Shown in pieces: positions 1-62,080 of a stretch of DNA of 64,000 nucleotides. The position numbers and the translations under genes were made by a program. The first letter of the stretch is position 1. The number at the start of each line of letters is the position of its first letter. The DNA lies in contig JAJEKV010000028.1 of the NCBI GenBank assembly GCA_021234155.1, positions 10,122,134-10,186,133 on the forward strand, given 5' to 3'. A model generated the notes under the pieces. The model searched no databases. It was not told where the DNA came from and saw nothing but the letters and a program-made list of their open reading frames with translations. This DNA is from Isoetes taiwanensis. Its lineage: Eukaryota > Streptophyta > Lycopodiopsida > Isoetales > Isoetaceae.

Positions 1-564
1 TGATGTGCCAGCGAAAGTTGTTGTAGCTTCTTCACAAGGAGTTCGTTCAAACATATCTCTTATAGCAGACTGAAATTCTGCAAACCCATGTGTCACCACG
101 GTTGTGTGAAGAGGAGTAGATATTGCAAGGTCGTCTTCATTTGTAGTGAAATCATGGTGGGAGAAGCTGTGGTGAATCTCGCAGTCTTCAGAACGTGCTG
201 TATTCCTGGCATGTGTAAGTGAAGATGGAGAAACAACAAAGGGCTGAGGTAGTCTGTTTCGAACAATTTTCTGAGGTCGAGCCATTGTAGTGTCGGGGGA
301 TGGTACAAATGGTGGTGGAAGATTTCTATGTGAAACAGGTGAGGCTTTGAAAGGAGGTGGCAGCCGGTTCCCTACTGGACTTGGAGAGGGTTGGAAAGGT
401 GGTGGCAGTCTACTAGTTACTGGACTCGGAGTATCTTCAAGAAGCAACAAAGACCTTGTCGAGGTAGGTGTTGAAGAAGCATCTCCGTCTTGTGTTCCAT
501 CTGAAGTAGAGATACTTGGGCAAACAAATGGTGGTGGAAGTTTGTTCACGACGCGGTTAACCAT
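1..564 (-). CDS. Proline-rich repeat protein, N-terminal part (runs off window)
   Basis: Reading the minus strand from an ATG at 564-562, the frame stays open for 188 codons to the window edge; two in-frame stops lie just upstream (600-595). The product is proline-rich and carries five copies of a short repeat of the form (K/R/N)LPPPFxxSP: KLPPPFVCPS, RLPPPFQPSP, RLPPPFKASP, NLPPPFVPSP and RLPQPFVVSP. Ser/Thr-rich linkers follow, then a less repetitive acidic and histidine-containing tail. I recognise no family. A possible splice acceptor (TTTTTTGCAG) lies just before the ATG, so an upstream exon is possible. It points away from the ParB/methyltransferase gene and shares the palindrome-rich intergenic region with it, so common regulation is plausible but unproven. 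The repeat could also make the open frame a by-product of DNA repetition. Confidence 0.5.
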   Translation of the reverse strand, partial: MVNRVVNKLPPPFVCPSISTSDGTQDGDASSTPTSTRSLLLLEDTPSPVTSRLPPPFQPSPSPVGNRLPPPFKASPVSHRNLPPPFVPSPDTTMARPQKIVRNRLPQPFVVSPSSLTHARNTARSEDCEIHHSFSHHDFTTNEDDLAISTPLHTTVVTHGFAEFQSAIRDMFERTPCEEATTTFAGTS

Positions 565-1531
565 GCTAAACAACTGCAAAAAATTGTGGGCTTGTTACTA
601 ACTCACAAGTCGATTGGACTAATGATATTCGAGAATACAAATGCTATTCCTAATAGTATTTTTTTGTGCAAAAAGATTTGTTTGTGTGTGTGCAAAGATG
701 CTATTCCAGAATACACTTGTCCAGAGTGTTTGGACAAGACGTATTCCGCATCACATAGAAAAACACAACTGACAGTGGCCTACCTTTAAAAAGAAAAATT
801 GAGCGCCTCGATTCCGCCTGTGAGATTTAGTCAGCCCGAAATTTCTTCCGATCAATATTCATTTGCTGTATTCCGATTTAGCATGTAAAGTACATAGTAC
901 GTCTTTCTTGTGTTTCCTGATTTGCTTTTGTAGGCCAAAGTACACTTTGGGCTTCTGTCGAAGTGCAAAGTGTATTCTGGAATACACTTTTCTCACTGGC
1001 GAAGTGCAAAGTCCAGAATACACTTTGCTCACTGGCGAAGTGCAAAGTGTATTCCAGAATACACTTTGCCCATCTGGCGAATAGCAAAGTGTATTCTGGA
1101 ATACACTTTGCTCACTGGCCAAGTGCAAAGTGTATTCCGGAATACACTTTGCCCTTTAGGCGTAGTGTAAAGTGTATGCTATACTGGATACACTTTGCTC
1201 ACTGGCCAAGTGCAAAGTGTATTCCGGAATACACTTTGCACTTCGCCAGTGAGCAAAGTGTATTCCAGAATACACTTTGCTTGTCTTTTTGAGAACACTT
1301 GTTTTTTTGCACTTAAACAACCCACTTTTTAGCTGAAACAGACCACTTTTTAGGTTAAACATACCACTTTTTAGACCCATTATAGCATAAAAATTTAAGT
1401 TAGAGCGACAATATTTGTGCTTGTTTTCTTGTCTTTTGCTGGCCTTTAGGGTACAAAATTAGTAAATCTTATTCTGGAATATAGCTTTCGTCTCATTTTC
1501 TGTCTTCACATTGTTGTTTTAAACTTTTCAG
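565..1531. promoter_or_regulatory. Divergent intergenic region with palindromic sites
   Basis: This stretch separates the proline-rich minus-strand ORF from the first visible exon of the ParB/methyltransferase gene. It holds no convincing coding exon. It contains single copies of the palindrome TATTCNNGAATA at 626-637, 702-713 and 1470-1481, plus the dense array at 967-1278. A pyrimidine-rich splice acceptor (AAACTTTTCAG) ends at 1531, so part of this region may be an intron of the plus-strand gene. Function as a shared regulatory or binding region is inferred from position only. Confidence 0.4.
967..1278. repeat. Array of eight ~24-bp palindromes, 41-45 bp period
   Basis: Eight sites start at 967, 1007, 1044, 1086, 1127, 1169, 1214 and 1255. 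The full site reads AAAGTGTATTC, a two-base centre, then GAATACACTTT. The centre varies between CC/GG combinations (TCTGGA, TCCAGA, TCCGGA) while symmetry is kept. The second site has lost its left half and the sixth is degenerate. Spacers are relatives of GCTCACTGGCGAAGTGC; the last spacer (1238-1254) is this sequence in reverse complement, so the right end of the array is itself inverted. The core TTCNNGAA also matches a minimal heat-shock element. Short open frames across the array come from the repeat and are not genes. Confidence 0.95.
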
Positions 1532-3108
1532 TGGCAGGGAAGAAGGAAGCAAAAGGGCATCAAAAAAATATCTGAAGGTTAGGCGTCCACACCCTCAGAA
1601 GCACACCGCTGACACGAACGAGCCTGCGATTTACGAAAACTTTCAAACGCAATGGTTCAGAACCCGGGTGATAGCAGATGGAAAATACAAAGACACCGAC
1701 GTTTTTGTATGCCTCAGAAAAGTCTTTGGGAACAAAAGGTACGCCGACACCGAGTTTGTTAACCTTGGGACAATAAAAGAGGTCTTTGAGGTTGCGGGAC
1801 AAGGAGGTCAGATGGGGAGGCTATCCTTCAAGACCTCCCAAGGCTACATTGTTGTGGACATCGCATTCTTTAGAATTGTCAGTGTGCAACCACAGGCACT
1901 GTACAAATTTTTTTCACACTACCGGACAAAACGAAGCTTGTGTTCAGTAATTAGACAGGTTTGTTCCAGTACAAGCGAGGACTTTCCAGGCTTGAGTTCG
2001 AGCAATCAGATGGAGGTAGGTCACAATCATCACCTTCTGCTAGTACTTCAGGGAGGTCATCAAATGGAGGTTCCCAAGAACAAGACGAGGAAGAGCCCCC
2101 TGTGCCGCCAAAGAAACTTAGCAGGCCAAGGGCAACCATAGCCGCTAAAAAACCAAAGAAGCGAAAAGTACAGCAACTTGAAATCACAGAAATCCCCGAG
2201 GAAAGCTCAAAAAAACAAAAGGGAAAAGGAAAAGCTCCCGGGGTTGCAATAAAGGAAAAGAAGGTTGATAAGACCTCTGAAAGAATGGAGGTAATTAATA
2301 GAGAAAAATTTGTACAAGGGGTGACTTATCTTCCTGTGACTAGCATGAGGCTGCCCCCAAAGAATGAGTCTGGCGAAAGGCCGCTTCAAGTTCGAAAAAT
2401 TTATGCCGACCACTTAAGGAACTTGAAGGACAGAATTAGGAGCAATTTAAATGCTCATGTAGCCCCAATAGTTGTCCTTGTTGACAGGGAGCAATGCAAA
2501 ACCCCCCAGGAATATGACAGAGAAAACGCAGAAACATACACTCACTACGTCTTGGGAGGAAATCATAGCTTCAATGCAAGAAGGCAGTTGTACAAAGAAA
2601 AGAATAACCCCATGTACCTCTCTGTCTTGTGCGTCGTTTACTGTGGTCTCACCGACGAAGAAGCAAAAATCGTTGCCAACACCCATAATGCTGACAACGA
2701 GTACAAATTAAAGATGAGCTTCGTCGACAAGATCCAATTTATGCACAGGGAGTATATGATTTTTAAGGAAAAATATGGAGAAGATTTAAAGAAACCGGCA
2801 TACTCATTAGAACTGAAGGAAGCGTGCGCTGTGGAGTGCTGCCTTAAGTACGATGAAGCTAATAAATGGCAGTCTCTCATACCGCACCTACAAAATGAAA
2901 TTTTTACCATGTTCGAGCGTGGTGAATTAAAAAGTAAAGGAAAGGTCTCAGAAAAGAAGAAAGGTTCTGACGTCCCAAAGAAGGAAATGACGATCACGGT
3001 CTGGAGAGAAATGCAGGGCTTTACAGACATGGACATACTCGAAAGGCTACTGCAGAAGGTCGTAGATAAAGAGTTTACGCTTGAAGAGATGTCCAAGGAA
3101 CTGCACAA
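1532..3108 (+). CDS. ParB-like domain half of a ParB/DNA-methyltransferase gene (exons 1-2)
   Basis: Exon 1 (1532-1881) follows a TTTTCAG acceptor and encodes a basic, unrecognised N-terminal region; the true start codon is not located. A 77-bp intron (1882-1958, GT...CAG) restores the frame into exon 2 (1959-3108), which ends at AA|GTAAGA. Exon 2 first gives a Ser/Pro-rich linker and a classic nuclear signal (KKPKKRKV at 2147-2170), then a ParB/sulfiredoxin-like domain. That domain shows PIVVLVDRE (about 2464-2490) and the ParB-type box LGGNHSFNARRQL (2552-2590), comparable to the GERR box of ParB proteins. A helical Lys/Glu-rich C-terminal part follows. Coupling of ParB-like domains to DNA amino-methyltransferases is known in bacteria and phages; introns and a nuclear signal indicate a eukaryotic, long-resident gene. 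Exon 1 to exon 2 joining is inferred. Confidence 0.7.
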
Positions 3109-3157
3109 GTAAGAACGACAAAACTTTCATTTAAATTTTCCTTCCGTAGCAAGAAAT

Positions 3158-3285
3158 GTATTCCAGAATACGTTCTGGCTCAGTGTGTAAGCTGAGATGT
3201 CTTTCGAAACACACTCGGGAAGCCAAGGTGTATTCTGGAATACACTTTGGCTTCTGTGGGTAGTCCAATGTGTATTCCAGAATAC
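3158..3285. repeat. Three palindromic sites inside intron 2
   Basis: The intron between exons 2 and 3 (3109-3362) holds GTATTCCAGAATAC at 3158-3171, GTATTCTGGAATAC at 3230-3243 and GTATTCCAGAATAC at 3272-3285. The second has longer arms, AGCCAA...TTGGCT outside the core. These are the same sites as in the 967-1278 array, with a different spacer (TTGGCTTCTGTGGG-type instead of CTCACTGGCGAAG). Confidence 0.93.
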
Positions 3286-3362
3286 ACTTTGGCTTTTTCT
3301 TCTTGGTGCTTTCGTTTTCCAGAAAATAATACTCACCTAGTTTAATTGTTCTTGACTTCCAG

Positions 3363-4754
3363 CCAAAAAAATATTATTACGTGCCAGACATGTTTAATGG
3401 AGCAGTTGAACGTGGACAGCTGGGACAGGTGTAAAGAGCTCTATCCCATAGCTACATCCGACGAGCGTATTATTCAATACGCTCCAAATTTTGAGGGCTG
3501 GGTACGTCTTTTTCCTGTTTTTAATGTTTTTCCTTTGTGCTGCCTGCCTAACATCATTTACTAACAGAGCAAGAAGAAGAACAAGGACCTACCAGAAGGT
3601 TTTATGCATCTGGTAAGAACAGCCAGAGAAGAGAGGACTCTAGCGGATAGGCGTATTGTAGATGTTGAGCCGTCCGACTACGAGAGGTTTTCCATGTTTG
3701 ATCAAAATAACTTTTATTCTGTCGTTCATGGGGCCACAAGATTTTACTTTGGTCATAGCAGACTTGCCGTATGGGTTTAAGCTGAAGGATAGCCGCTACG
3801 ACGATCAGTCATTCAAAAACTCAGAATTTAATGCTTTCGTCGACGGAATTAAGTAGGTTACCACAGCAAAACACTGGCGTCTTGTTGTGTTCCACTCCAG
3901 CATGCAATCCGGACTTGTGGAAGCTACTTTCAAGAACCACTGCGGTTCTCCTATGTAAGCCGGTTATGAAAATATGGTCTGGTGAGTCTTCAAATCTCGA
4001 GTGCAGTTGAAACGTTCTTTCTTTCAAGTTTTGAATCATGGTTGCAGTTGTAACCCGTCATGTTCTATTCTGGAATACGTACTTACTATTCTGGAATACG
4101 ATCTTGCAGGTACAAAACTAATATTAACTACCATGGTGGAGGACCGAGGCTGCTGAGCAAGGTTGAGTATCTCCATGTAGCTTACTGGAGTTTCGACGGG
4201 AAGCGTACCAGGAGCACTTCAACACAGCAGCCTGCCAAATTTTTTCTAATGTCCTAGAGTTCCCAGCAGTATTATAGAAGCTCCAGGACCCAAGTGCACA
4301 AGGCAAAATTGTGAATCATTACCAGAAGCCACAGAAGCTAATTAACCATATTCTGGATATGTTTTCACGTCCAGAAGATTGGGTCCTAGATGCTTTCTCT
4401 GGCTCTGATACAACAATAGCATGTGCACTTAAAAAGGGTCGTAATTGTGTTGCCGTTGACATTGATAAAGAGGCTGTAGACTTTATCAAGATGCGTTTGT
4501 CTGCTCTACCAACTCTACCAGATGAAAATCAAGAGTTGGGAGCCAAATCATCATCAGATTTTGCCAAGATGACATCCTCTGAGATACAACCTCCTTTCAC
4601 AAGCTCTCTGGAAGATGAAGCTACCTTTACAGAGCTCAAAGAAGTAGCTCTAGCTACTATTCCTGAAGAGACTGTTGACACCAGCAAAGATAAAACAGTG
4701 ACAAAGGAACAAACTGAAGAGATAGACAAAGCTGAGACGAGCAAACCACACTGA
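3363..4754 (+). CDS. DNA N6-adenine/N4-cytosine methyltransferase half of the same gene (exons 3-7)
   Basis: Exon 3 (3363-3501) is flanked by CTTCCAG and TGG|GTACGT. Exon 4 starts at 3568 after CTAACAG. The catalytic motif IV is ADLPYG (3758-3775), a DPPY-type motif of N4/N6 amino-methyltransferases; the cofactor motif I/FxGxG is DAFSGSDTT (4389-4415), followed by GRNCVAVDID. Motif IV before motif I is the beta-class order. Exon 5 ends at AT|GTAAGC (3954), exon 6 begins at 4110, and exon 7 begins at 4278 after TTATAG; its acidic Thr/Glu-rich tail ends at 4754. Two defects are visible: the frame changes between 3662 and 3740, and an in-frame TAG lies at 3854-3856 inside otherwise protein-like sequence. 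The copy may be a recent pseudogene, or contain an unrecognised splice or assembly error. Substrate base (A or C) cannot be told from these motifs alone. Confidence 0.7.
4066..4099. repeat. Two palindromic sites in intron 5
   Basis: TATTCTGGAATAC occurs at 4066-4078 and again at 4087-4099, just before the splice acceptor ATCTTGCAG (ending 4109). They match the core of the upstream array, so this intron also carries the gene-associated palindrome. Confidence 0.9.
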
Positions 4755-5072
4755 GGACTTCGATTTAGACCTCTGACTTAGTTTTTGCTAAATTATTTAC
4801 TACTGGCTAGAAAATAATGCCATATTTGATGTACTGAAAGAAATTAATAAAAAAAAAAATATTTTTATTTTTACGTTTTTTTTATGTCCTCGAATTCATA
4901 GTAATATTCCTGGTGTATTAATGTCTGGAATTTTGCCATTTCCAAGTGCTCTTTTCTACAAATGCAAGATCATCACTTCAAAAGAGCCTAAAATGCACGA
5001 TAAAATATTTTGTTTCACTTGAAATCCCCAACTTCTTTTGAAAATAATCATTTTTTAAATCCTGGTGTTTTT
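4755..5072. other. AT-rich 3' flank of the methyltransferase gene
   Basis: No coding signal is seen. An AATTAATAAAAAAAAAAAATATTTTTATTTTT stretch near 4842-4870 is a plausible polyadenylation region for the upstream gene. The antisense LINE remnant starts at 5073. Confidence 0.4.
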
Positions 5073-6330
5073 TTAAGGGAATCTTTGAAACGGGAGTGAT
5101 GCAACACTCCCGTTTAATTTGCAATCGTGTTCACATCTCAGGAAAGCATGCTCCTCTGTTTCAATTTCCAGCTCTAGACATGCAGGACAGAATCTCTGAT
5201 TACGAGGAGTACCAGTCCACCTTCCAGTCTCTATATGGAGTGTATGCGATGACAATCGTAATTGAGAAATAAGCATCCGTATTTTCCTATCAATATTGGA
5301 TAAGAGATATTTCTGTTCTTTGTATTCCTGCAAGTCATTGACATTTGTTAGATAAAACTGTTTTTTAACCTCTTTTTCTGACTCCAATATCCACATTTTC
5401 TTGACAACTATTTCAGAAACCTGTGCGTGAACTTCCATGAACTTAAGCGAGACAGGCCAGATTGCACCTAGCCATCTTTCTGCCCAATGTTTGACCTCCG
5501 AATACCAACCTTTAACAGTGGATTGCTCTAAAGCCAATCGAGGGTATCGATCACCATCCATAGCAAGTATCCTATTGACATAGGTTATAGTCCTGCAAAG
5601 AGCTTCTACCTCAAGTGGAAGCATACCTGCCTCTGCCAACAACATTTCATATGGTGTTTGGGGTTTCGCCCCAAATTCTATGAGCAAAAACCTCTTTTGG
5701 ACCTTTTCAATTTCATTCCAGCTCTTCTTTGATAATCCTACCCCCCAAATGGGACTACCATAAAGGATCACTGGTTTCACTTGAACACCATATAGCAATC
5801 GTCTCAACTTCCAGTGATCGAAAATATTGATTTTACACTGATGAAGCATACTGTATAATGCTCGCATGCCTCCTGAAGCCCTCTTTTGGGCTGCCACATT
5901 TCATCTATAATTCTGTGATACTTCAATACCAAGATATTTATACTCACTTACTTTCTGTAAAGGTATTCCTCCAATAGAAAAAAATTGCGGTATCATGCCC
6001 CCCGAACACCATAATTTTTTACTTATATGTATTTATGGATAATCGCTTTTCAGCGCAAAAAGCATCCAGAACATTTAAATGCTGCTGTAAACCGCTTGCT
6101 GTTTTGGAGATTAGCACTATGTCATCTGCAAATAACAAAAGCTGAATAATATACTTCCCAAGTCTAACTCCAACACCACCAAGTCTTGATAAAATTTCAG
6201 CTTCATAAGTTGGATAAACCTCCATGAGAAGCAGTGGCAGTGGAGGTTTGATGATTGCAGTACTTTTATGAGAAGCAGTGGCAGTAAAAGTACTTGAGAA
6301 TATTGCCTCATGAACACTATAATTGTTGAA
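5073..6330 (-). mobile_element. LINE (non-LTR retrotransposon) RT remnant, antisense
   Basis: Minus-strand frames 6360-6019 and 5897-5073 together give the distal part of a non-LTR reverse transcriptase. The YADD-type catalytic box appears as LLFADDIVLIS (around 6120-6140) and is followed, after a frame break near 5900-6018, by the conserved connection region (ILYGSPIWGVGLSKKSWNEIEKVQKRFL). The C-terminal CPACLELEIETEEHAFLRCEHD is the zinc-binding tail typical of plant LINE ORF2. The N-terminal RT, the endonuclease and ORF1 are missing, so this is a truncated fragment. No poly(A) tail or target duplication was found. The 3' end near 5073 is read into a stop after a Phe/Pro segment. Confidence 0.85.
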
Positions 6331-6636
6331 GATCAAATAAGCAATTATTATCATAGTCATGAGATAGAAGGTGCATGTAAGAAGCAGCAGTTAGAAGATG
6401 ATTGCCTAGGTTATTATTTATCTGGTCAGCTTCAGGTTGATAATCAAGTGCATGGTTGCCTTAGCCAAGGTTGCAAATCCATAATGCCTAAGGTTGACTC
6501 AAGCATTCGAACATTTGAAGTGGTTATTCCTTGTTTTATTAAAACATAAGCTTCAATGGTTGAGAAAGCTATTTTCTTCTAACGTGCATGTGGGATAATT
6601 CCATAAGTGCCGATTTTCTCACGTATGCCCACAGGT

Positions 6637-7805: not shown

Positions 7806-8480
7806 CTATTCCAGATCATGTAGCATTTCAGGCAAACTTCCCAGTAGCATCTCATGCACATCAGTAGACAATGCATAAGCTGCAGAAGCACCCTTCACCT
7901 TATGATTTACTTTTGGCATTGCAAACTTTGCTCCAATAACAGACTCTGCAGGTACAAGAACTTCTTTGTCATCCAATAACTTATACTTGTGGTGACAACC
8001 AGGCAATTTTTGATGGTAATAGGCGGATATGACTGTTTCACCTGTATGGTGATAATTTTTGTAATCGTCAATAACATTTTCCTGCAAAACAAATTTTGTT
8101 TTCTTGCAAAGAAGGATATAGTATGGCACATTTTCTTCATTTCCTGGTGCAGCAAAAGAAGCAAACATATCACCCACCTGTACTAGATCTTCTAGCTCTT
8201 CATTTACATTTGCAAAAGCAGCAGTTTCCTCATTCTCTACTTCACAATGAGTACTTACTCGGGGTACTAGCTTCTTTAATTGCCACTTCCCACAGAATGA
8301 AATGGACTCACAAGCATCCCATTCAAAGTTAATGCAAGCATTGCAGAAGCAAGATAATGGTCTCACCATTACTAAGGTGGGGTCAGTTGGACTTATAGAA
8401 GCTATAGCATGCAATTTCTGAATACCAGGAAGAGGTTGCATATCTAATGCATTGGTTCTATCAATATCAGACTCCTTCAC
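7806..8480 (-). pseudogene. Transposase-like protein, C-terminal part
   Basis: About 224 codons continue the transposase after a one-base frame break near 8515: in the neighbouring frame the sequence reads NVNRVYWEVKESDID directly into this ORF. It contains a cysteine group SCFCNACINFEWDACE that could bind zinc, a Glu/Asp-rich linker, and a segment PYYILLCKKTKFVLQENVIDD. The stop is at 7806. It is convergent with the ORF at 7165-7665. It has no independent start and is best read as the tail of a broken gene. Confidence 0.55.
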
Positions 8481-8502
8481 TTCCCAGTATACTCTGTTAA
8501 CA

Positions 8503-8940
8503 TTAAGATTGCTTGCTCCTCAAGACAACACAAGCATCATGTGCACCTCTAATCTCTGTTCCATGTTCTCGTAACTGTTCGGCTGCAACCTGCTTGGCCT
8601 TGGCAGACTCTCCATCATGTTCACCTTTTCCATGCCCAGAACCAAAGTAGTTCCATTGTAAATGAATGCCATATTCAACATGGTACCTGGTAATGAAATA
8701 TAAATTTCTTCTGGACTTGTATTGTGCAGCACAACCATCAGACCACACAATATGATACTGTACATGAGATCCACCATTCTCTTTCAGCCATTTCAGATGA
8801 AGCTTAAATGTATGTTGTACAAAATGTGTATCATGATTCCTGTCATCAGAAATATACAAGTGAACAGTCTTCTTCAAGATGCCATTTACCTTTAGCATGG
8901 TAATCTGTACCATTATAGTAACTTGGTCCGCGCATTCCAA
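8503..8940 (-). pseudogene. Transposase-like catalytic core
   Basis: This frame carries the best motifs of the element: ECADQVTIMVQI, HLYISDDRNHDTHFVQHTF, then VWSDGCAAQYKSRRNLYF, and FGSGHGKGEHDGESAKAK. The spacing of an Asp in SDG and acidic residues in HGKGEHDG fits an RNase H-like transposase core. Just upstream (toward 9005) FAENYTLKPFKEV and HW are readable in another frame, showing a frameshift. The protein is therefore inactive here unless a frame is restored elsewhere. Confidence 0.6.
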
Positions 8941-9005
8941 TGTTACGACCGAACCTCTTTGAAAGGCTTCAATGTATAATTTTCTGCAAAGTCAACCACT
9001 TGATA

Positions 9006-11014: not shown

Positions 11015-11892
11015 GCCCCTACTACTACTATGAAAACTGATATGCATGCAAAGATCCGGCAAGAATTTGAAATTCTTTTCTTTGTTTTAGATTCTTAGAC
11101 CGTAGATTGGAGGGAATTTGCTTGCTTCGGATGGATTGGAGGGAATTTGCTTGGATCGGAGGGAATCCAGTGATTGTGCCCAAAATTTCGCAACAACCGT
11201 CGGCCACTTCATGTCATGATGACAAACAATCAAATATATTCCTTTTTTAAATATATAACGACAAGCACGTGGCCTCCTACCATACATTCAAAATTACATA
11301 AAAAACGGGTTTTCTAGTGCAAAATAGTACATGAATTTAGAACTAATGTATGACACCCTAGCATGCTTTTACCCTGTGGGATAATGATGAACACGATTTT
11401 CTCCAAGTTTAGCAAGCTATTCCGACTCCTACACCGCCGGAATGAATATAGATAAGCTCAAGGAGGAGCCAGAAGTATTAGAGGCAAGCACAGAGAGGGG
11501 AAAAGCCGTTTTGCAGTATGCACTAGGCTTGGGAAATCTAAGACAGAAAGGCATTTGATGGTAAATTGCTATAAGAAATGAGTCAATGACTCGAAGCTCC
11601 AGTTAAATCATTAGCATATGATTTATATGTCCAATGGTTTATAACTTTGCATAGGAATAGTTGGAGTTTAAAGTTTATATTGACATTGAACTTATTGGCT
11701 TGAATTATTTTGAGAATGAATGACCATATTGTGGCTTCTCAAAATTACTATGCATATTGAATGCAAGATGTATAGCCAATGTATGTGATTTGATCTTGAG
11801 TTCAAGAAAAGCTTGAGTTAAAAAAAATAAAATCTTGCTAGTCATTTGGTGAAGTGCTTTGTTTATCTTATTTCCTAGACTAAACCTATCAG
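11015..11892. other. AT-rich flank without recognised gene
   Basis: This stretch holds a short direct repeat (GGATTGGAGGGAATTTGCTT, around 11110-11165) and AT-rich sequence. Its right part should hold the 5' LTR of the Copia element that starts at the primer-binding site at 11893, but I could not match it to sequence downstream of the Copia pol remnant. Confidence 0.35.
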
Positions 11893-11904
11893 TGGTATCA
11901 GAGC
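11893..11904 (+). other. Primer-binding site (tRNA-iMet)
   Basis: TGGTATCAGAGC is complementary to the 3' end of initiator tRNA-Met and lies 8 bp before the gag ATG at 11913. Confidence 0.85.
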
Positions 11905-11912
11905 TATTTTTC

Positions 11913-13631
11913 ATGGCTAGCAGATTTGGAGCTAGTTTGCTCAACACCATAGAGGTGTACAAAGGAGGAGCAGGATTCCAGATTTGGAAGGATGCTATTA
12001 TTCATGTGTTGGATGTTGAAGACCTTTGGGAAGTTGTAGATCCCAATAGTCAGGTATCAGCAGGTGTATTGGCCAGAACTGCCTCTACAGGTTCAGTAGC
12101 AGGAGCTGGAGGTCAATCAGCTGAAAGTACAAGAGCTGAAGGGTCAGGAGGAGCTACAAGCAGAGGAGGCACAAGCACAACTGGAGGAAAGTCGTTGCAG
12201 ACTAAGATCAAGGAAGCTCAGGGCATTATAACCTGTAAGTTGAGTCCAGCTATTTGTTTAAGGGTTAGATCCTTAAGTCCAAAGGAAATATGGAAGTATT
12301 TAATTAAGCACTATGAGGAAAAAACTTCCTCTCAAATAGATGTCTTGGAAACTGAGTTGAGAAACCTAAAATTAAGGGAAGATGAGGATGTGTCCGAATT
12401 CTTCAATAAATTTGACAATTTAATAGCTGACCTTGAAGGGGCTGGGGTAAGAATATCTGACAGGAGTCAGGTGCTGCAAATATCCAGGGCTATAAGTGAG
12501 AATGAAACACTATCCTTGTTCATTAGAAACTCAAACAAAAGTAGAGAAGAAGCTGAAGTCATGCTAAGGACAGAATGGGAACAGAAAAAAATTTTAAGAC
12601 AAAATGATGAAACTTCTGAGATATTGATGGTGAAAAAGAAAGATAAAGTCATTTGTTACCACTGCCATGAAGCTGGACACTATAAAAGTGAATGCCCTAA
12701 AATTAGAAAAGACTTCAATTGTTTCACATGTGGTGGTAGAGGACATATGGCTGCCAAATGCTCTACACCAAAGAATTTTGGCAGAGCATCAAGAGGAAGA
12801 GGTGATTCAAGTACTGGGAGGTCTGGAAGGGGTAGAGGCCGAAATTATGAGAGAGCTTATGTGACACAAGAAGCACAAGAGGAAACCAAAACCAAATCTG
12901 CAGAAGATGAAGAAGAGGTAATACATGAGTTTGCAGTTAGCAATGAGGATGTTTGTACGGACAAAAGTAATCATTTGATAGTTGATTCTGGAGCTGAAAG
13001 ATCAGTAGTTCAAACTACTGATCTTTTGAAGGACATCTCAGCTGCAAAATCGAGGAAGATCCAAGTAGACAATGGAACATTACAAGATGTACAAGGGAGA
13101 GGATTGCTTCAGCTCAGGGATTTAGATGGAAATGTTGTTAACATAGAAGATGTGCTATGTGTGCCAGCTATTATAAAAAATTTAATCTCAGTGAGTCAGT
13201 TGTGTGATTTAGGATATCGAGTTACTTTTGATGCAGATCAATGTACTGTTTTACTTGATAATAAAATAAAGTTTTATGGAAAGAGGGTTGGCAATTTATT
13301 TGAACTTGACAACCTCATGCACTCTAGTGTGAATGCAATATCAGAAATTGGCATTGAAATGTGGCACAACAGATTGGCACATACAAATCACAAGAATTTA
13401 GATATTTTACACAAACAAGGACATATAGATTTCTGTGATAACAAAAGCAGATTTATTTGTGAAGGGTGTGCTCTTGGTAAACTTCACAGATTGTCATTCC
13501 CTAAAAGAAAGACCAAAGCATCTCAAACTCTGGAATTGGTACATTCAGACTTATGTGGTCCATTAAATGTGCAAAGTAGAAACAACAACAAATACTTTGT
13601 AACTTTCACAGATGATAGAAACACAGCATAA
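11913..13631 (+). CDS. Copia Gag-protease-pre-integrase polyprotein (truncated)
   Basis: The likely start is the ATG at 11913, just after the primer-binding site; the frame is open upstream but without a better start. Order: a UBN2-type Gag (YKGGAGFQIWKDAIIHVLD; LRNLKLREDEDVSEFFNKFDNL), two CCHC zinc knuckles (CYHCHEAGHYKSEC and CFTCGGRGHMAAKC, about 12655-12765), an Arg/Gly/Ser-rich spacer, a retroviral-type aspartic protease (LIVDSGAERSVVQ, about 12977-13015), then the GAG-pre-integrase zinc motif (MWHNRLAHTNHKNLD ... CEGCALGKLHR) and the beginning of the integrase core (HSDLCGPL). It stops at 13631 where foreign sequence begins. About 572 residues from 11913. Two knuckles instead of one is less usual for plant Copia Gag. 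Confidence 0.9.
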   Translation: MASRFGASLLNTIEVYKGGAGFQIWKDAIIHVLDVEDLWEVVDPNSQVSAGVLARTASTGSVAGAGGQSAESTRAEGSGGATSRGGTSTTGGKSLQTKIKEAQGIITCKLSPAICLRVRSLSPKEIWKYLIKHYEEKTSSQIDVLETELRNLKLREDEDVSEFFNKFDNLIADLEGAGVRISDRSQVLQISRAISENETLSLFIRNSNKSREEAEVMLRTEWEQKKILRQNDETSEILMVKKKDKVICYHCHEAGHYKSECPKIRKDFNCFTCGGRGHMAAKCSTPKNFGRASRGRGDSSTGRSGRGRGRNYERAYVTQEAQEETKTKSAEDEEEVIHEFAVSNEDVCTDKSNHLIVDSGAERSVVQTTDLLKDISAAKSRKIQVDNGTLQDVQGRGLLQLRDLDGNVVNIEDVLCVPAIIKNLISVSQLCDLGYRVTFDADQCTVLLDNKIKFYGKRVGNLFELDNLMHSSVNAISEIGIEMWHNRLAHTNHKNLDILHKQGHIDFCDNKSRFICEGCALGKLHRLSFPKRKTKASQTLELVHSDLCGPLNVQSRNNNKYFVTFTDDRNTA

Positions 13632-14180
13632 AATAATGAAGTTAAAGGGTCCTCTCTGTTTTTTATTGATATAATGCTGAAGGACGAAAATGCAAAAAAG
13701 ACAGAATAGCAAAAGACAAATAGCAATAAAAATGTGGAAGGAAGATACCTGTTATAACTATGCTTTGCTTGCTCTATGTTATCTTCAAGTCCTTCTCATG
13801 CATGCAAAATTACAATCTCCCAGCCCCAATAACATCGATTCACTTCAAGTAAACTCAGAAATAGTGGATAAGAAGATTCAACCAGAACACTCTCGGCTTC
13901 AAGCTGGCTCCAGCACCCAAAATAACTCTGTTGCGCTCCAGCAAACCCAATGTCGGATGTGAACAGAAAAAACATGGAAAGCCCTTTACCTTTAGATTTT
14001 CCCTCTCTTTTCTTGGTATGAGCCCCGGTTGGCAAGAAGCCTGTCGGCCAAAATCCGAAATGCCCTAATTTTTGGACGGGAGGAAAACTGGCGGTTTTCC
14101 AGGTTGGATGGAAAATTCACAAAATCAAACACATGATTTGGCTTGTGCCGCAGACTTTGCCCAACACTGATGGAAGCTGA
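13632..14180. other. Unidentified insert replacing Copia IN/RT
   Basis: About 550 bp sit between the broken integrase and the resumed RT. No retroelement protein can be read here. Both strands have short open frames of low quality. No clear terminal repeats were seen, so whether this is an insertion plus deletion or a recombination product is open. Confidence 0.45.
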
Positions 14181-14188
14181 ATAAAGCA

Positions 14189-15225
14189 GTGTATGGCTTG
14201 AAACAAGCCCCTAGGCAGTGGTATATTTGCATGGATGAATATCTTAGAGAGAAGGATTTTTCAAAGTTGCAGACTGATGGAAATATTTATGTTTTAAGAC
14301 AAGGAGATGAATTTTGTGTTATTGCATTGTATGTAGATGACTGCATTATGATTGCTAATTCTATGACTTGCTAGAATAAATGCAAAACAGTGCTTAAAGA
14401 CAGATTTAAAATGACAGACTTAGGAGAACTGCAAAACTTCTTAGGAATTGAAGTACACAGAGATCGAGCTAATATGAAGCTGTCTCTTACTCAGACTTCA
14501 AATATACAAGGCATGTTGAAAAGGTTTGGCATGGAATCTTGCAAGTCAATGGATACACCATTAGTTCCAGGACATAAGATCTTAGAGGATATGTGTCCTA
14601 AAACAATAAAAGAATCTGAGGATATGGAAGGCACCCCTTACAGAGAATTGATTGGATGTTTGCTCTATGTATCTAACTGCACACGGCCTGACATTGCATT
14701 TTCTGTAAGCCTGCTAAGTAGATACTCAAACAATCCAGGGAAGATGCATTGGATGGCAGCAAAGAGAGTGCTAAGGTTCCTTAAAGGAACTCAAGAACAG
14801 GGTATTTGCTACTCTAATGATAACATGACACTCATAGGATATTGTGATGCAGACTGGGCATCCGATTTAGACTGTAGAAAATCAACATCTGGATTTTCAC
14901 TCTTACTTGGAGGAGGGTCAGTTGCATGGAAATCCAAGAAGAGTATGCTGCCATCACACTTGCAGCAAAAGAGATTATATGGGCCAGAAAGATATTAAAT
15001 GAGCTTGGAATTATGCAAAGAGATCCAACTATATTACCAGTTCTTCACCAAAGAACTAAGCACATTGAACTTAGCATGCATTTTATAAGAGAAATGGCGG
15101 CTCAAAAGAATATTGCAGTTGAATATGTTAGCACACAAGAACAGGCAGCTGACATTTTTACAAAGGCATTGACACAAGTCAAGTTTGATAAATTCAAACA
15201 AATACTTGGTGTTACAGTCCAGTAG
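14189..15225 (+). pseudogene. Copia reverse transcriptase and RNase H, frame-broken
   Basis: Three frames: 14189-14374 with VYGLKQAPRQW and the catalytic YVDD box (ALYVDDCIMIA); 14390-14998 with DLGELQNFLGIEV, GTPYRELIGCLLYVSNCTRPDIAF and the RNase H segment CDADWASDLDCRKSTSGF; and 14926-15225 with EEYAAITLAAKEIIWARK, HIELSMHFIRE and ADIFTKAL. A stop at 14374 and a frameshift near 14950 inactivate it. All motifs are standard for plant Copia. Confidence 0.88.
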
Positions 15226-17528: not shown

Positions 17529-18574
17529 TTGGAAAGCTTGTTCCGAGCTCTTTCCGATGAAGAAAGCATCAGCAGTTTTGCATGTGGTTTGGTGCCGCAA
17601 ACAGCTGATTTCCGGACTGGTTCGGATGTCATGGCTCCTGCCAGACAGGCTGATGGGGGATCGATTGAGCCTCATGGCTTGGGGCTGAAGCCAAGGGAGA
17701 TGGCGAGGAGGAAGAATCCTCCAAGAAAGGGAAGGGCGCGGGTCTCGGCATGCATGAAGATGCGGGGGCTGTAGGAAGTGGCATGCAATTGGTGGCAGAG
17801 ATGAGGGAGCTCTTGGAATCCCCTTCGGTTGAGAGGTATGTGGATTGCTCTTCCTCTCAATATAATTCTGAGACCCCAGTAGATTGTGTTTTGGAGACTC
17901 CGGTCTTGATCCCATCAAGCATGCCCCCTTTGGAAACTGGATCTGTGATGCCCTCTTCCCTTGTGCTTGGGAAGGGATCACTTGCTGGTGATGCACCCTC
18001 TTCTAGGGTGCATGTAGCTGATATGACTCCTGGGGTGCCCCTGGATACCTCTCAGGATGCCAGGGCAGCAGCCCCAACTCCTGTGCGCCCGGCCTGGCGG
18101 AGCAATGACACTGTTGCTCGCATCATTCGGCCGGGGTTTTCAGATTGGATCAAGCGCAAGGCTCCGGAGTGTAGGACTGCCCGTGTTCAAGAGGCTCTAA
18201 AATTTGTAGAGGATCATCACTCTGTTGACCTGCAGGCAGCTCTTCCAGAGACTCCATGGATAGATATTGATCATACCAGGCATGTTCAGACTATTGAGAA
18301 TCTAGTTTCATTTGCAGTATTGGGCTACTTCACGGGTTACATATTGGACACGAGGAGGTTTAGCTCTTGGCTTGCTGGACATCTGAGGCGGATTGGTTTG
18401 CCCAGGTATCAGTCTCTGAAATTCCTCTCAAATAATTTTTTCATAATCATATTTGAGGCTGAGTCTTCCGTGCGGCAATTGGTTCCTCCTGATCTGATGG
18501 TGCCTGATTTCTTGGTTTCTATGGCTAATGGCCTGGGTGTATATTTGGCTCATTCTATTGTGCAGGTCCCCTAG
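17529..18574 (+). pseudogene. LINE ORF1 (DUF4283-like Gag protein), frame-broken
   Basis: Two overlapping frames, 17529-17774 and 17750-18574. The second contains a Ser/Pro-rich N-terminus, then FVEDHHSVDLQAALPETPWIDIDHTR, GYILDTRRFSSWLAGHLRRIGL, YQSLKFLSNNFFIIIFEAESSVRQL and MANGLGVYLAHSIVQVP before a stop. This arrangement is the RNA-binding fold found at the N-terminus of plant L1 ORF1 proteins (DUF4283-like); the same order is seen in the LINE at 61 kb. Downstream frames to about 19.2 kb are shifted continuation. Confidence 0.7.
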
Positions 18575-19265
18575 ATCTGTGTTGCTCGCTTTGCTTTGCA
18601 GCGGCTGTGCCCACTTCTCTTCCGATGACGTAGTGGTCCCCGCATTTTACGTTCCGATTGAAGCTTTTGAATGGCTCTGAGATCCGGTGGATGTTTCCAT
18701 CTATTGTCTTTGCCCATCCGACCCTGCTTGATGATCCTGGCTGGGTGGGTGATGTGGTAGGGATTGCGTGTGCTTGTGCAGGGCCCGATTCCTTTGTTCC
18801 CGAGGTAACAGCGAAGGACTTAGTGGGTGCGGAGTGGAGTTGGACCCAGAGGTGGTGGTGTGGTTGGGAGAGGTGGTGTGGGGCAGGCCTGGGCGGGGCT
18901 TGCTTTGGCCACGCCCATTGGATGGCAGGGCTAGGGGACGTGGTGGCTCAGGGGAGGGCTCAGATGATGATTTGGTTGTGGCTAGGTCTGAGGACAGGGC
19001 TGTGGGAGGGGCTGGTGATCCTGTTGGGGATGTCCAGATAGCGGTACGTGCTGAGCATGAGGTGGCTGGAGCAGTCCGGTTGGAGGTAGAGACTAGTGTG
19101 GCCCATGACTCTATGGAGGTGCCTGGGGGACTTCCAACAAGTATCACATACAGCGGCTGTGGGTCACTTTGCTGTGATTAATCCTCTGGCTCTAGGTGAT
19201 GACTATGTGGAGTTGACTGATGGCCTGGTGGGTGGGCATGTGGGGCTTGATACTTCTCCTCCGGG

Positions 19266-20114
19266 ATGAATAGGTCGATCCTCAGTTGGAATGTGCGGGG
19301 GGTGCGGTCCTCTAGTAGTAAGAGGGCCCGTGTTTCTTTGGCACTTCGGCAGTTGCGTCCTGATATTGTTTGCATTCAGGAGCATAAGTGTCACAGGGGT
19401 GATATGTCTAGGCTCATGATTATGGTTGGTAGGCAGTTTGCCTCTATTGCTTCTTCTTCCGGGCGGACTAGTGGGGGTACTCTCTTATTGCTTGGAGGAT
19501 GGATGTGCGTGTCACGCATTACTCTGCAGCCAGCATGGTTTGGTCGGTGGGCAATCATTAAGTGGATGGAGGGAGGGCAAGAGTGGGGGATTGTTAATGT
19601 TTATGCCCCTAATCAGCCTTCTCAGCGGGGTGCTTTATGGGCCACAGTTCGGAATAAGTTGCGAGCCCTTGGTGGGTTTGCAATTAAACTGGTTGTTGTT
19701 AGGGGACTTCAATATGGTAGAGCGAGTAGAGGATCGCCTGGTTCGGAACCCGTGTTGTGCATGGGTTTGAGAGGGACCGATGGTCTCGCTTTCTTGCAGG
19801 ATTTGGCCTTGGTTGAGGTCCCTGGGGACTTGTCTTTCACCTATTGTAATAGGCAGATTGGTGCGGGCCGGGCGTATGCTAGGCATGACCGGTGTTATGC
19901 TTCCCCATGCGCACTGGATGGTGTGCCCTCTTTGCGCCGGAGTAACATTCTGTCTACCTCCATTTCTGATCATTACCCTCAGGTTTTGTCCAGTCAGGGT
20001 GCGGTTGCCTCTCGGCCCTCTAGGACAAGTTCCGCTTTGAACACCCGCCTCGGGCCGATGCGGATTTCTCGGCCCAGTGCCAGGAGTTGTGGCTTGATAC
20101 CTTTTCATCTCTGA
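19266..20114 (+). pseudogene. LINE ORF2 endonuclease domain, frame-broken
   Basis: The frame starts MNRSILSWNVRGVRSS, the SWNVRG motif of the apurinic-like endonuclease, followed by LRPDIVCIQEHKC (catalytic Glu) and WGIVNVYAPNQPSQR. Near 19690 the reading shifts: the expected LLLGDFNMVERVEDR is in an adjacent frame (19426-19770), so one frameshift lies there. SDHYPQ near the end is the SDH catalytic motif. With this order and the RT downstream, an L1-clade ORF2 is clear. Confidence 0.85.
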
Positions 20115-20407
20115 AGGGTATGTCTGGTATGGTGACTGCCTTGGCCAGGGTGAAGCGTTTTGCCAAGGTCTTTGGTAGGCAGCGTGTGCAGCAGGAGCGG
20201 CAGGAGTTGCATGGTCTCTATCAGGAGTTGGAGAGGATTCGGGCGCAGCCTTCTGATGGCATTAGGGAGAATGCCGTGTTGCAACGTATTGTTGCTCTGG
20301 AGCAGGTTAAAGTGTGAGAGGCACGTGTGAAGGCAGCCCTTACCTGGTTGAAGGAGGGGGACACAAGTTCGGCTCTGTTCTTCTTGAGCAGCTAGGCAAA
20401 TGGCGAT

Positions 20408-22975
20408 ATGCAAAGATCTATGGCGTCCCTTGCTTTGCCTGATGGCCGGACTTTGGAGGATCCCACTGATTTGCAGAGGTATGTGCATGCCCATTTCTCA
20501 GGGTTTTTCGCACAGCGCACTCTTCCCTATGAGCAGGAGATGCAGGAGCTTGTTTTTGGGGCTGTTAAGCCATCTATTCTGCAGTGTGAGAGCTTGGAGC
20601 AGGAGCTCTCCAGAGAGGATTTAGCGGCGGCATGTATGTGCATGGCCAAGGATAAATGTCCTGGGCTGGATGGCATCCCTGTGGAGTTCTTTCAGACTTA
20701 TTGGGAGTGGGCTGGTGAGTCGGTGTACCAGGTGTACCTTGAGTTGCTGCAGTCTTCTCAAATGGATAGGATCTTGAATACCGCATGCATTTCCTTGATT
20801 CCTAAGGTTAAGTAGCCTTCTACTATTAATTAATGATTGGAGGCCTGTCTCCTTGTTGTCCTCTGTGTATAAGATTATTGCGAAAGCCCTGGCAGAGAAG
20901 TTGAAGCCGGTGTTGACTTCTTCCATTAGTAAGGTGCAGTCTGGGTTTGTCCCTGGGAGGAACATTTTGACTAATGTTGCCGCAGCTTATGAGGGCCTTT
21001 ATTGGGCCAGAAGAACAGGGCAAGGCATTGCCTATCTTAAGCTTGACTTTGCCAAAGCTTACGATAGTGTCCGTTTTCTTGTCTGCCATGATGTTAGCGT
21101 TGGGCTGTGGTCCACGCTTTACCGAGACAGTCATGAAGCTGCATAGGTCAGCACGGGCTACGGTGGTGTGCCAGGGTGAACCCTCCGCCTTTTTCTCCTT
21201 AGGTAGAGGGGTGCGTCAGGGGTGCCCTTTGGCGCTGTTTTTGTTTACGATTGTGGCGGAGGCCTTTGTCGCCTCGATTGTTTTTGCTTTGCGGTGGAGG
21301 AGGGAGTAGTGGATGGGCTTCGGATGCAGGATGGTAGCCAGCAAATTATTAACCAGTTTGCCGATGACACTTTCCTCTTCTTGGTGGCAGAAGAGAGGAA
21401 TTTGCAGAATGTGAAGGGTTTGTTGGATACTTTCTCCTTGGCCTCAGGCATTCTTCTGAATTGGGGTAAGTGCTCCGCATTATGGGCCCAGCTGACTCCG
21501 CCTCCCCCTTGTTTGGCTCTATTCCCTTGGAAGGTGCTTCCAGGTAATGTGTGTACTAAGCTGTTGGGTATTCCCTTTGGAGGGGATGTTTCCATGGGGA
21601 GGGTGTGGGATGAGATTTTGCAGGGATTGCAGAAACACCTCAATTGGTGGAAGGGTAGCAAGTTGTCCATGGCAGGTAGGATCACTATTGCCAAGTCAGT
21701 ACTTTGTAGCACTCATGTGTATACAGCATCTGCGATGCTAGCTCCTGAGGGTAAGATACAGGCTTTGGATAAGATTGTTCGAAATTTTGTGTGGGGCGGG
21801 GATGATGAAGGGGCGGTTGTTAAAGTGGCTTGGTGGAAGTGTCTCCGCCCCCGGGAGGATGGGGGCTTGGCCATTCTGGATTTAGCGCTGCATAGTAAGG
21901 TGTTGGTCTCCAAGTTTGTTTGGAGCATTCTGCAGGATGGAGCATCTTCTCCTGGTGCGGCGCTGTTGTTGCAGTCTCTTCGCCATTATGTGGTGTTTGG
22001 GAAGCCGTCTGTGCATGTGGAGTTGCCCTGGGCACTGTTGTATGGTCTTCGGCCTTTCCCACATGCATCCCCTTTTCTCACAGGAGTGGTGCGGGCTTGG
22101 GATCATGTGCGTGTGCTCTTCCAGCTAGATTATGCCTCAGTTTATCACCACTCTTCTCCTTTCTTGTGGGTTCCTTTACCCCCTGTGCACTTGCCCTTGG
22201 CTGCCACTGTGCATGCTAGCTTCGTGGGAGTTCCTTCGAGCTCGCTTTTACTTTGGGGCGGTGGCCAAGCCTATCACGGGAGCACGTGGCGGTGAGTATT
22301 CCGCTACACATACCTATAGTCCCTCAGGATGATGTGGTGGTGCAGGTTTGGAAGGTTCATCCGGATGTTGTGTCTTCTTGCTTTGTGCGGTCTTCTTATC
22401 GGGTGCTGGCTATTCATGACACACTACCCCCTTCAGGCAAGTGGTCTCTGCAGCTTCCGGGTTCTCGATGGCGCTCGGTTTGGACGTGGACATGGAGCTC
22501 ACTTCCCCCATCGAAGGTTAGGGTGCTTCTGTGGCAGGTGGTGCACCGTTGTATCAGGGTGAATGCCCTTGTGAGTCGGTTTAGGCCGGGTGTGAGCCCT
22601 CTCTGCCCTTGTTGTGGCCTTCATCGTGAGACTGTGGAGCATTGTCTGGTTTTATGCCCTCACTTGCAGGCTGCCTGGGATTGGGTTAGGGCTCTGTTTC
22701 AGGTGAGATTGACTAGCCAGCAGTTGCTGCTTCATGTGTATCCTGGTGCTTGGCCACTCTTGAGGCAGCAAGCCTTGCATCTGTGCGTGGCTTGGTTGGT
22801 GTGGCTGATTTGGAAGCGGCGGCGGTTGTGGATCTTTCGGGGGGATTCAGCGGCTTTGCGACCTCTCGATTCCTCGACTCAGGTACAAGCTATTTCAAAG
22901 CTTTCTGGTGTTCCCGGGAGTAGTAGAGCGGAATTTTGCCATTTGGCGGGACTTCTTGGGTGTTGTAGATGGTGA
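20408..22975 (+). pseudogene. LINE ORF2 reverse transcriptase and C-terminal zinc domain
   Basis: Broken frames give in order: KDKCPGLDGIPVEFFQTYW (20640-20705), LLSSVYKIIAKALAEKL and SGFVPGRNILTNV (20853-20975), LDFAKAYDSV (catalytic Asp), GVRQGCPLALFLF, and INQFADDTFLFL, the FADD active-site box near 21350-21385. The C-terminal frame 22253-22975 ends with the plant LINE zinc motif CPCCGLHRETVEHCLVLCPH. Stops near 20815, 21146 and 21309 separate the frames. Confidence 0.88.
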
Positions 22976-35317: not shown

Positions 35318-35799
35318 TGTTAAATTCTATGCCAAATGTGGTAGCTTAGAAGAATCATGTAAAGTTTTTGACAAATTGTTGGTTTCTATGCCAAATGTGG
35401 TAGCTTAAAGGAATGGGTCTTTTTATTACTTGTATGACTTCACTGAGTGGGAGGAGCTATTGTTAACCTTTATGTAGAAACATTTACACCTTTATGACAT
35501 ATTTAATTAAATTTGGACTTATTCAAATCTAATAAATGTACTTCAAGGATGCCATGATAATATTATATGTATTTTTAGCTCTTATTGATTTTAATAATTT
35601 GTTCTGTTTATCTTTAGATAAAAAATATGATACTTACCAAAATTTAAAGTAAACTAATTCTCGGTTTCAGCTATTTAGAATTAAATTTTCATCTAAGATA
35701 ACTCTGTATAACTAAAATGCTATTCTTTTCAAAATATTTAAAGAAAGTTTTAAAGAATAAATAGGTTGGGAGGATGATAGAAAGAGCATTTGGAAGAGA
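35318..35799. promoter_or_regulatory. Flank between repeat copy 1 and RING-H2 gene
   Basis: AT-rich. Two copies of TTCTATGCCAAATGTGGTAGCTTA (about 35325 and 35383) form a small direct repeat. Homology to the second RING-H2 copy begins about 50 bp before the ATG (AAAGAATAAATAGGTTGGGAGGA), so no extended promoter is shared between the two copies. Confidence 0.4.
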
Positions 35800-36219
35800 A
35801 TGGCAGCTCCGGAAGCGGATAGATTTGACCGACTAGAAACGGATTGGTACTCGCTTAAACGAATTGAGCAGGTAGTGGTTATGGTCGCCGTGCTGCTTCT
35901 GCTAGTGTTCGTGGTGGCCAAACACGTGTTCGAGTTTTTCTATCAAGTTGGCCGCCCTGAAATGCGCATGCCAGTCTTCTTCAAAGAATGCCCCGTATGC
36001 TTATCAGATTTTGAAATCGGCCAAATGGCACGGAAGCTCAACTGCGGCCACATTTTCCATTCTGTCTGTATTGATAAGTGGTTAGATTTTCGCACCACCT
36101 GCCCTCTTTGTCGCTCTGTTTCTGCAGATTCAAACTGGCCTCATAAACCAGGCAGATTCGTGGTGGATGTATTGCCCCAAAACAATTCTCAAGACGACAA
36201 GATCGATTTTCAAACTTGA
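35800..36219 (+). CDS. Membrane-anchored RING-H2 E3 ligase-like protein, copy 1
   Basis: A single-exon gene of 139 codons. Order: short hydrophilic N-terminus, one transmembrane helix ([21 protein letters not shown], about residues 22-42), then a C-terminal RING-H2 finger with CPVC ... [14 protein letters not shown] ... CPLC (about residues 65-107), all eight metal ligands present. This is the layout of small plant RHA/ATL-type ubiquitin ligases, which act at membranes; substrate unknown. A near-identical copy of the same length lies at 48789-49208. There is no stop or frameshift. The surrounding direct repeats and a shared LTR-like 3' flank show that it was duplicated together with mobile-element sequence. 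Confidence 0.85.
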   Translation: MAAPEADRFDRLETDWYSLKRIEQVVVMVAVLLLLVFVVAKHVFEFFYQVGRPEMRMPVFFKECPVCLSDFEIGQMARKLNCGHIFHSVCIDKWLDFRTTCPLCRSVSADSNWPHKPGRFVVDVLPQNNSQDDKIDFQT

Positions 36220-48045: not shown

Positions 48046-48788
48046 CTGAGAAGTTGCTTCAGAACGAAACACGGATGCAAGATTACCTTGCTTGCTTTGT
48101 AGTTAGCCCCACAAACTCCTGTCGATGATATATAGAAATGCTCAAGAAATCGCTTGCCATCGTTTTTCCTTATAGAAGATTAAAGAAAAGACTAGCAGAT
48201 GCAATGGAATCACAACCCTAAGCCCACACCAACTTGACAAATCCGGCCCTTCAATGAGCTCGCCATGCCGCTTAAGGAAAACGGCTATTGGATACCCCTA
48301 CTGTCTCCTGCACTCACCTCCTGCGAATACCCCAGAGATGGAAGCCAACTCCTAACCTAATTTGCAAAAATTTGGAGAGGTGGCCAGAGTGGCGCTGCTC
48401 CTGAAGATGTGTTCCTGTTTTTTGGGATTGGACCTGAATACCTGCTGCTGCTAAAGAATCACCTATTACAGACAGGCAACCCAACCAAAAGCTGAGATCT
48501 CATCCCCACCTAATCCACACCATTTGTCGATCCTCAAGTATTCCTCAAATCCCAAAACTCCACAGCCACAGATAAAGAATGTTCTATAATATTCTCGAAT
48601 CTTGACCCTCTATCCATCCCTCCCCACACTCCCAAGGGTTGCCCGTAAAAATGAAGTAAAAACTATTGCTTGGGACATGAAAAAAGAAAAAGGGCAAAAA
48701 AAAGGGCCAAAAAGGTTCGAAAAAGGCAAAAAGGCTAAGTTAAAGAATAAATAGATTGGGAGGAGATAGAAAGAGCATTTGGAAGAGA
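48046..48788. other. Flank between unknown gene and RING-H2 copy 2
   Basis: May hold 5' exons of the minus-strand gene (for example a GTAATCTTGC-type boundary near 48085), but none could be fixed. Homology to the RING-H2 copy 1 locus begins at about 48738. The segment 48661-48735 is A/G-rich with AAAAAGGGCAAAAAAAAGGGCC-like repeats. Confidence 0.35.
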
Positions 48789-58958: not shown

Positions 58959-59024
58959 TAGCCCTGGAGTCTTACCTCGACCCGCTTCAACCTGCTGACA
59001 AGTTTCACAAACTTTTACATATTC

Positions 59025-61899: not shown

Positions 61900-62080
61900 C
61901 CCTCAGTTCCTGCTTCATGTAGCATTGCTCCTCCCATTGCATCTCACTGTGGTCGCTTTGATCACTTCAGTGGGTTGATTTGGTTGATAAGGTTATTGCC
62001 ATGCCAGATGCCCAGGAAACATCCTCAAAGTCCCTTGAGACACCAGCGGTCTCATCTGAATTGGCCCCATCACAAGGTCA

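Follow-up and report, generated by a model that had tools for sequence, protein, structure and literature searches.

The element and its insertion site

The window analysed here is a 64,000-nucleotide stretch of the genome of the quillwort Isoetes taiwanensis. Positions 1532-4754 had been read in a preliminary description as an intron-containing gene that joins a ParB-like region to a DNA amino-methyltransferase. This part of the window is the right half of a decayed copy of a multicopy DNA transposon with terminal inverted repeats (TIRs). The transposon copy is 8,049 bp long and extends from G000:C1032 10119216 to window position 5131. It carries two divergent genes, a transposase gene on the minus strand, running leftward from window position 564, and the methylase gene on the plus strand. 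The features of the element, other than the methylase gene itself, are as follows, where L029 is a sequence that spans the left side of the element.

1-5131, no strand: right 5.1 kb of the transposon; the alignment of copies ends at about 5131, and the remaining 2.9 kb, on the left, are beyond the window in L029:7083-10000
1-564, minus strand: N-terminal part of the transposase gene, starting MVNRVVNKLPPPF; the DUF7869 part is at L029:8524-9048, minus strand
565-1531, no strand: intergenic divergent promoter region and 5' intron, with eight exact palindromes
5107-5131, minus strand: right TIR CTCCCGTTTAATTTGCAATCGTGTT, from end comparison
5132-5135, no strand: target-site duplication (TSD) CACA; the second copy closes the left flank

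In an all-against-all comparison of copies, similarity drops off at window position 5131, and the left end is common to the spanning sequences L029, L030/L022 and L031/L027. The element ends, AACAAGATTGCATATTAAACGGGAG and AACACGATTGCAAATTAAACGGGAG, are inverted repeats with 23 of 25 bases equal. A 4-bp TSD is present in both copies for which the two ends were read (CACA for the window copy, TTGG for L022); in a third spanned copy, L027, no right end was found. Excision of the element together with one CACA restores an open frame of 179 amino acids from a long interspersed nuclear element (LINE), whereas excision of 3 or 5 bp instead of 4 gives frames of at most 127 or 133 amino acids. Given the common ends, the TIRs, the TSD and the restored frame, the window copy is a transposon inserted in a LINE. 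The split LINE relic occupies window 5136-6390 (minus strand) and the end of L029 before 7083 (minus strand); by eye, it shows a reverse transcriptase FADD and a C-terminal Cys motif.

The region L029:8524-9048 matches Pfam DUF7869 (E=6.2e-37), and its place in the element suggests that the DUF7869 protein is the transposase. Sola transposons presumably make a 4-bp TSD, which the TSD of the quillwort element fits, and membership of the Sola1 superfamily is plausible from the TSD and the layout.

The genome (1,658,258,908 bases in 1,110 sequences) was searched with the ParB-like frame of the window, and the best 107 of 4,910 first-look candidates were scored. At least 154 stretches match this frame, dispersed across many contigs; the longer matches have 60-100% identity, and many lie in open frames of 400-600 codons. 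Twenty copies were taken with flanks, mostly from the top of the match list and with open frames, along with three upstream stretches. Among the matches listed, comparison by eye gave at least 8 of 40 scored left ends with a like-oriented ParB frame some 4.8-5.4 kb further into the element.

The preliminary description had proposed a gene that reached the plant by horizontal transfer and would methylate DNA at adenine or N4-cytosine. Bacterial-type domains, introns and a plant host are in keeping with such a gene, but the transposon ends, the TSD, the linked transposase and the many dispersed copies leave it very little probability. A single host gene was likewise rejected by copy number and transposon ends, though a domesticated copy of the methylase gene may exist elsewhere in the genome. 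The host had also been taken for a fern; it is a lycophyte, though a fern relative of the protein does exist. Contamination or a virus was rejected as well, given an 18-Mb contig, plant-like introns and no confirmed relative of the ParB region in viral contigs. Short peptide patterns, which reach close relatives only, confirmed no relative of that region in viral contigs or prokaryote genomes, and a phage search with the window frame gave none. The methyltransferase part matches 64 phage records (best E 2e-7), and the six phage methylases that were fetched are separate genes of about 650-770 bp, with no room for a ParB region.

The methylase gene and its protein

Comparison with related copies gives the methylase gene at least five coding exons separated by GT-AG introns, plus an intron ahead of the first exon. 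The start codon was not located in the copies compared. In the window, all on the plus strand, the gene is laid out as follows, with open reading frames abbreviated as ORFs.

1532-2886: exon E1, with N-terminal, basic and ParB-like regions; coding match from 1536; ORFs at 1485-2141 and 1955-3112, with a frame change near 1955
2147-2170: basic stretch KKPKKRKV, in an open frame
2552-2590: ParB-like box LGGNHSFNARRQL, in an open frame; weak profile matches
2885-3108: exon E2, joined to E1 here by a deletion of about 104 bp
3109-3362: intron 2, GT-AG, with palindromes at 3159, 3231 and 3273
3363-3501: exon E3, from comparison with related copies
3568-3981: exon E4, with ADLPYG (motif IV, 3758-3775); frame change near 3733 and in-frame stops near 3854 and 3956
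3982-4109: intron 4, with palindromes at 4066 and 4087
4110-4754: exon E5, methyltransferase motif X/I region (N6_N4_Mtase), with DAFSGSDTT at 4389-4415; frame change near 4203 and stop near 4275

The introns are supported by sequence comparison, because the GT-AG junctions are common to the window copy and the related copies and because the fern protein P0002, which was predicted separately, runs across the E1/E2 junction. In the window copy, the deletion at about 2886 fuses these two exons, with the loss of one intron, and so creates the long frame at 1955-3112. The three in-frame stops raised the possibility of reassigned stop codons, which was rejected given that related copies are open at those positions. 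Motif I reads GSDTT in the window, as compared to SGSGTT in 10 of the 20 fetched copies; four have another variant, and in six the motif was not found. DLPYG, at motif IV, is present in 14 of the 20, with the pattern unmatched in the other six. Therefore, many copies are damaged. The spliced copy L014 reads through 889 amino acids before the frame fails in its C-terminal tail. Both spliced copies have a CxxC stretch, ITCQTC, in exon E3 (window 3363-3501; L014 residues 543-548), which is possibly half of a zinc ligand set.

The ratio of nonsynonymous to synonymous substitution rates (dN/dS) was calculated for open segments only, in pairs with dS above 0.3, and the restriction to open segments lowers the values somewhat. 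The median is 0.034 for the ParB region (35 pairs, 11 copies), 0.019 for E2 (46 pairs, 15 copies), 0.030 for the motif-I exon (7 pairs, 5 copies) and 0.126 for the N-terminal region (22 pairs, 10 copies); for the motif-IV exon, no segment qualified among the open copies. On these ratios, the methylase gene of the transposon family looks to be under strong purifying selection.

The window frame at 4278-4751 matches Pfam N6_N4_Mtase over the curated cutoff (E=1.5e-15). The two PF01555 scores obtained for the family are 58.2 and 63.4 bits against a cutoff of 26.7, and motif IV precedes motif I. The 287-residue methyltransferase part of spliced L014 matches the phrog_67 DNA methyltransferase over residues 52-280 (E=6.4e-24) and CcrM, 6pbd (E=1.6e-10); MboIIA and RsrI match too. 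By sequence, this is a clear beta-class N6-adenine/N4-cytosine amino-methyltransferase with predicted activity.

The ParB-like part was compared to several profiles. Alone, the window frame matches DUF6551, which we take to be linked to ParB, with E=0.019; this family is matched by the ParB-like part of 9 of 13 aligned members, with a best E of 2.7e-4, under the curated cutoff. Matches were also obtained to TIGR03764 parB (E=6.2e-4, 19.5 bits against a cutoff of 143.75) and to phrog_1033 ParB (E=0.019). The search of solved structures by sequence gave nothing relevant to the ParB-like part, and a plasmid search with SopB, for building a ParB set, gave close sequences only.

Much of the preliminary description of the gene thus holds. 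The motifs that it named (LGGNHSFNARRQL, KKPKKRKV, ADLPYG and DAFSGSDTT) are all present in plus-strand open frames in the order it gave, and the spliced protein, with its shared GT-AG junctions, would be a beta-class enzyme in a plant genome outside the MET1/CMT/DRM and MT-A70 families. The introns stand as well, although the window copy is not intact and is one of many. The order of a ParB-like box followed by a methyltransferase holds. The second part has a significant profile match; the ParB label is weak, with E from 2.7e-4 to 0.019 and scores below the curated cutoffs.

A palindrome private to the element

The element contains repeated exact matches to a 12-bp palindrome, TATTCYRGAATA, in addition to those listed for introns 2 and 4 (no strand is assigned to these features):

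702-713: palindrome TATTCYRGAATA, 12 bp, exact match
973-1272: palindrome array, exact cores at 973, 1050, 1092, 1133, 1220 and 1261
1470-1481: single palindrome in the inferred 5' intron, exact match

All 13 sites in the window lie within the element (702-4098), as compared to none in the remaining 59 kb. Each of the 21 copies has 10-18 exact sites per sequence; the 13 counted for L017 include one past the right end of that copy. A count that began 1 kb ahead of E1 and ran as far as the coding matches, with the read-through tail of the E1 query left out of the exon part, gave 268 sites in 36.8 kb of noncoding DNA and none in 54.8 kb of exon matches. The sites occur in the intergenic region and in four introns, the inferred 5' intron and numbers 1, 2 and 4; intron 3 has no site in the eight copies examined. 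Genome-wide, an 18-bp form of the palindrome occurs 4,367 times, as compared to 0 for a reversed control.

The core is conserved well beyond its surroundings. Across 21 copies, the core in the 5' intron has an identity of 0.990, the rest of that stretch 0.738 and the best other ten columns 0.878; in intron 1, from 15 of the 21 copies, the values are 0.987, 0.669 and 0.813. This bears on the suggestion that the arrays are by-products, formed by tandem duplication and hairpin-forming repeats without any protein and perhaps feeding silencing by small interfering RNA. The arrays do make long inverted repeats, and a pitch of 41-43 bp, seen in 105 of 162 neighbour spacings up to 130 bp, is compatible with duplication. 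The lone sites in the 5' intron and intron 1, however, are 99% identical while their surroundings differ by a quarter to a third, and this makes the by-product explanation improbable.

The spacer at the centre of the palindrome is nearly fixed. It is 2 bp in 292 of 311 occurrences of TATTC-N-GAATA with 0-6 bases between, and the centre is a pyrimidine followed by a purine in 273 of those 292. The centres in 21 copies are CG (129), TG (79), CA (65) and TA (5), which looks like wear of methylated CG on one strand, as expected from host 5-methylcytosine (5mC). The double change to TA is rarer than independent changes would give.

Heat-shock elements take the form TTCnnGAA and have three or more in-phase nGAAn units. 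The palindrome core contains TTCNNGAA, and clustering in a divergent promoter fits an enhancer, such that the sites might bind a host transcription factor and make the element stress-inducible. A third in-phase unit is present in 0 of 278 sites, though. Of 386 occurrences of TTCNNGAA, 292 have fixed TA flanks, and 273 of these 292 have a pyrimidine-purine centre, which a plain heat-shock element would not require. The lone intron sites would also be left unexplained. Host-factor sites of this kind are therefore considered unlikely.

Ten clusters of sites picked by hand all resemble the element, two of them over about 160 bp only. In four of the ten (L039, L043, L044 and L047), a TIR and sites persist and coding similarity is slight or absent. 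These four clusters, and the confinement of sites to the element within the window and its flanks, would suit a model in which the transposase or another repressor of the element binds the palindromes as internal cis-signals for transposition, with the methylase acting otherwise. Against this, in two full copies the transposase gene and the outermost 1 kb on each side are free of exact sites, and the sites concentrate in the intergenic region and the methylase introns. Transposase binding is the least unlikely of the rival explanations, and still a doubtful one.

Proposed function

The best explanation for the palindrome may be that it is the target of the methylase protein, because it is private to the element, constrained and noncoding, and is placed around the promoter and in the introns of the methylase gene. 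We give a probability of about 0.5 to the proposal that the accessory methylase protein recognises the palindromes of its own element and is a self-addressed writer for anti-silencing or licensing. The protein would bind the palindromes via its ParB-like region, assemble on the arrays and methylate N6 of adenine or N4 of cytosine there or close by. Lying over the divergent promoter, the mark would most likely keep both genes active against host silencing; alternatively, it might show the transposase which copies belong to the element. Deleted copies that retain TIRs and palindromes would be served in trans by the same protein. A more specific version, in which the ParB-like protein loads on parS-like arrays and gives coding or deleted copies a private mark of N6-methyladenine (6mA) or N4-methylcytosine (4mC), unlike the 5mC of the host, for protection or licensing, is tentative and falls somewhat short of even odds.

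Several points weigh against this proposal. The window copy, with its frame changes, three stops, deletion of about 104 bp and altered motif I, is dead and cannot work. Catalytic motif IV usually has the form (D/N/S)PP(Y/W/F); here it is DLPYG rather than DPPY, while relatives have ADAPYG (P0002) and DPPYG (P0003). The region is called ParB-like rather than ParB, as the similarity is weakly supported by the profiles, and hhalign of this part with SopB gave no match, likewise with an unrelated RepE control, in what is a weak test with a single template. Two structure models were poor overall (mean pLDDT, the predicted local distance difference test score, of 42.9 and 49.5), and with these poor models no Foldseek match reached E<=0.001 and neither ParB nor a methyltransferase was among the folds listed. 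The VIA-align rows fall mostly over model residues 186-275 and barely cover the ParB-like and methyltransferase parts; in the P0003 model, residues of about 310-440 reach a pLDDT of about 64-84. Protein searches gave only three relatives, P0001 (E=6.4e-3), P0002 and P0003, none of them named as algal.

The sites themselves admit other readings. They could serve the transposase or a host factor, and the spacing of 41-43 bp is explicable by tandem duplication. Clusters were chosen for having sites, so deleted copies that keep sites are no fair sample. Helical phasing was considered and rejected: pooled short spacings favour 10.5-11 bp since 42 bp dominates, and distinct spacings give p=0.30. Binding, the methylated base, its site and the purpose of the mark are inferred.

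Other content of the window

By eye, much of the window resembles transposon DNA. Other mobile-element-like frames lie at 7806-8991 (minus strand; ...SDGCAAQYKSR...NYFGSGHGKGEHDG...), which have no meaningful Pfam match and look transposase-like. Copia-like retrotransposon frames with CCHC, integrase and reverse transcriptase/RNase H are seen at 11853-15225 (plus strand), and LINE-like and Gypsy-like frames at 17669-22975 and 61018-63496 (plus strand) and 57864-60577 (minus strand). Near-identical RING-H2-like frames at 35761-36219 and 48744-49208 (plus strand), 13 kb apart, appear as a local duplication.

Comparison with known systems

The bacterial beta-class adenine methyltransferases CcrM, MboIIA and RsrI share with the quillwort protein a significant sequence match and the order of motif IV followed by X/I, and differ from it at motif IV; they are not known to have a ParB region. 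Closer in organisation is P0003, a 995-residue protein from an 8.8-kb ENA contig, in which a ParB-like box precedes N6_N4_Mtase (E=3.7e-11) in the same order, although identity is 26% across one third of the query and motif IV is of the usual DPPY type. The Adiantum nelumboides hypothetical protein P0002 (550 residues; profile E=1.6e-20) shares the E1/E2 region and carries ADAPYGF, but in the annotated protein the ParB box is absent and motif I incomplete.

A protein that combines a ParB-like region with an N4-cytosine/N6-adenine methyltransferase is known as an accessory protein of the Ectocarpus transposon Sola1-1_Ec32 (Dinatale et al. 2025, PMC12477816), where it is encoded opposite the transposase of a DNA transposon, as is the quillwort methylase. 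The portions of that article available to us also make, for the algal parallel, the same proposal as is made here, and cite similar transposon proteins from green and red algae (Iyer 2011; Petroll 2025, Bostrychia). Compared by description, Sola1-1_Ec32 is a 21.5-kb element of a brown alga with a 1104-residue protein, whereas the quillwort element is 8 kb, resides in a vascular plant, has at least five methylase exons and contains conserved palindromes, which those portions of the account do not mention (PMC12477816). As a kind, then, transposon ParB-methylase proteins are already known from algae (PMC12477816), and the literature search found no case from a land plant. New, as far as that search shows, are the vascular-plant family, the exon structure and the candidate target site.

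It is disputed whether land plants possess an enzyme dedicated to marking nuclear DNA with 6mA or 4mC. The quillwort family provides a multicopy candidate writer with a defined 12-bp candidate target, thousands of sites and controls adjacent to them. With this family, the range of ParB-methylase transposons reaches beyond algae into a vascular plant, and a trace is seen in a fern; the palindromes suggest how proteins of this type could find the element that encodes them. The locus is ordinary and the family is not: a decayed copy of a ParB-methylase transposon carries a testable signal for self-recognition.

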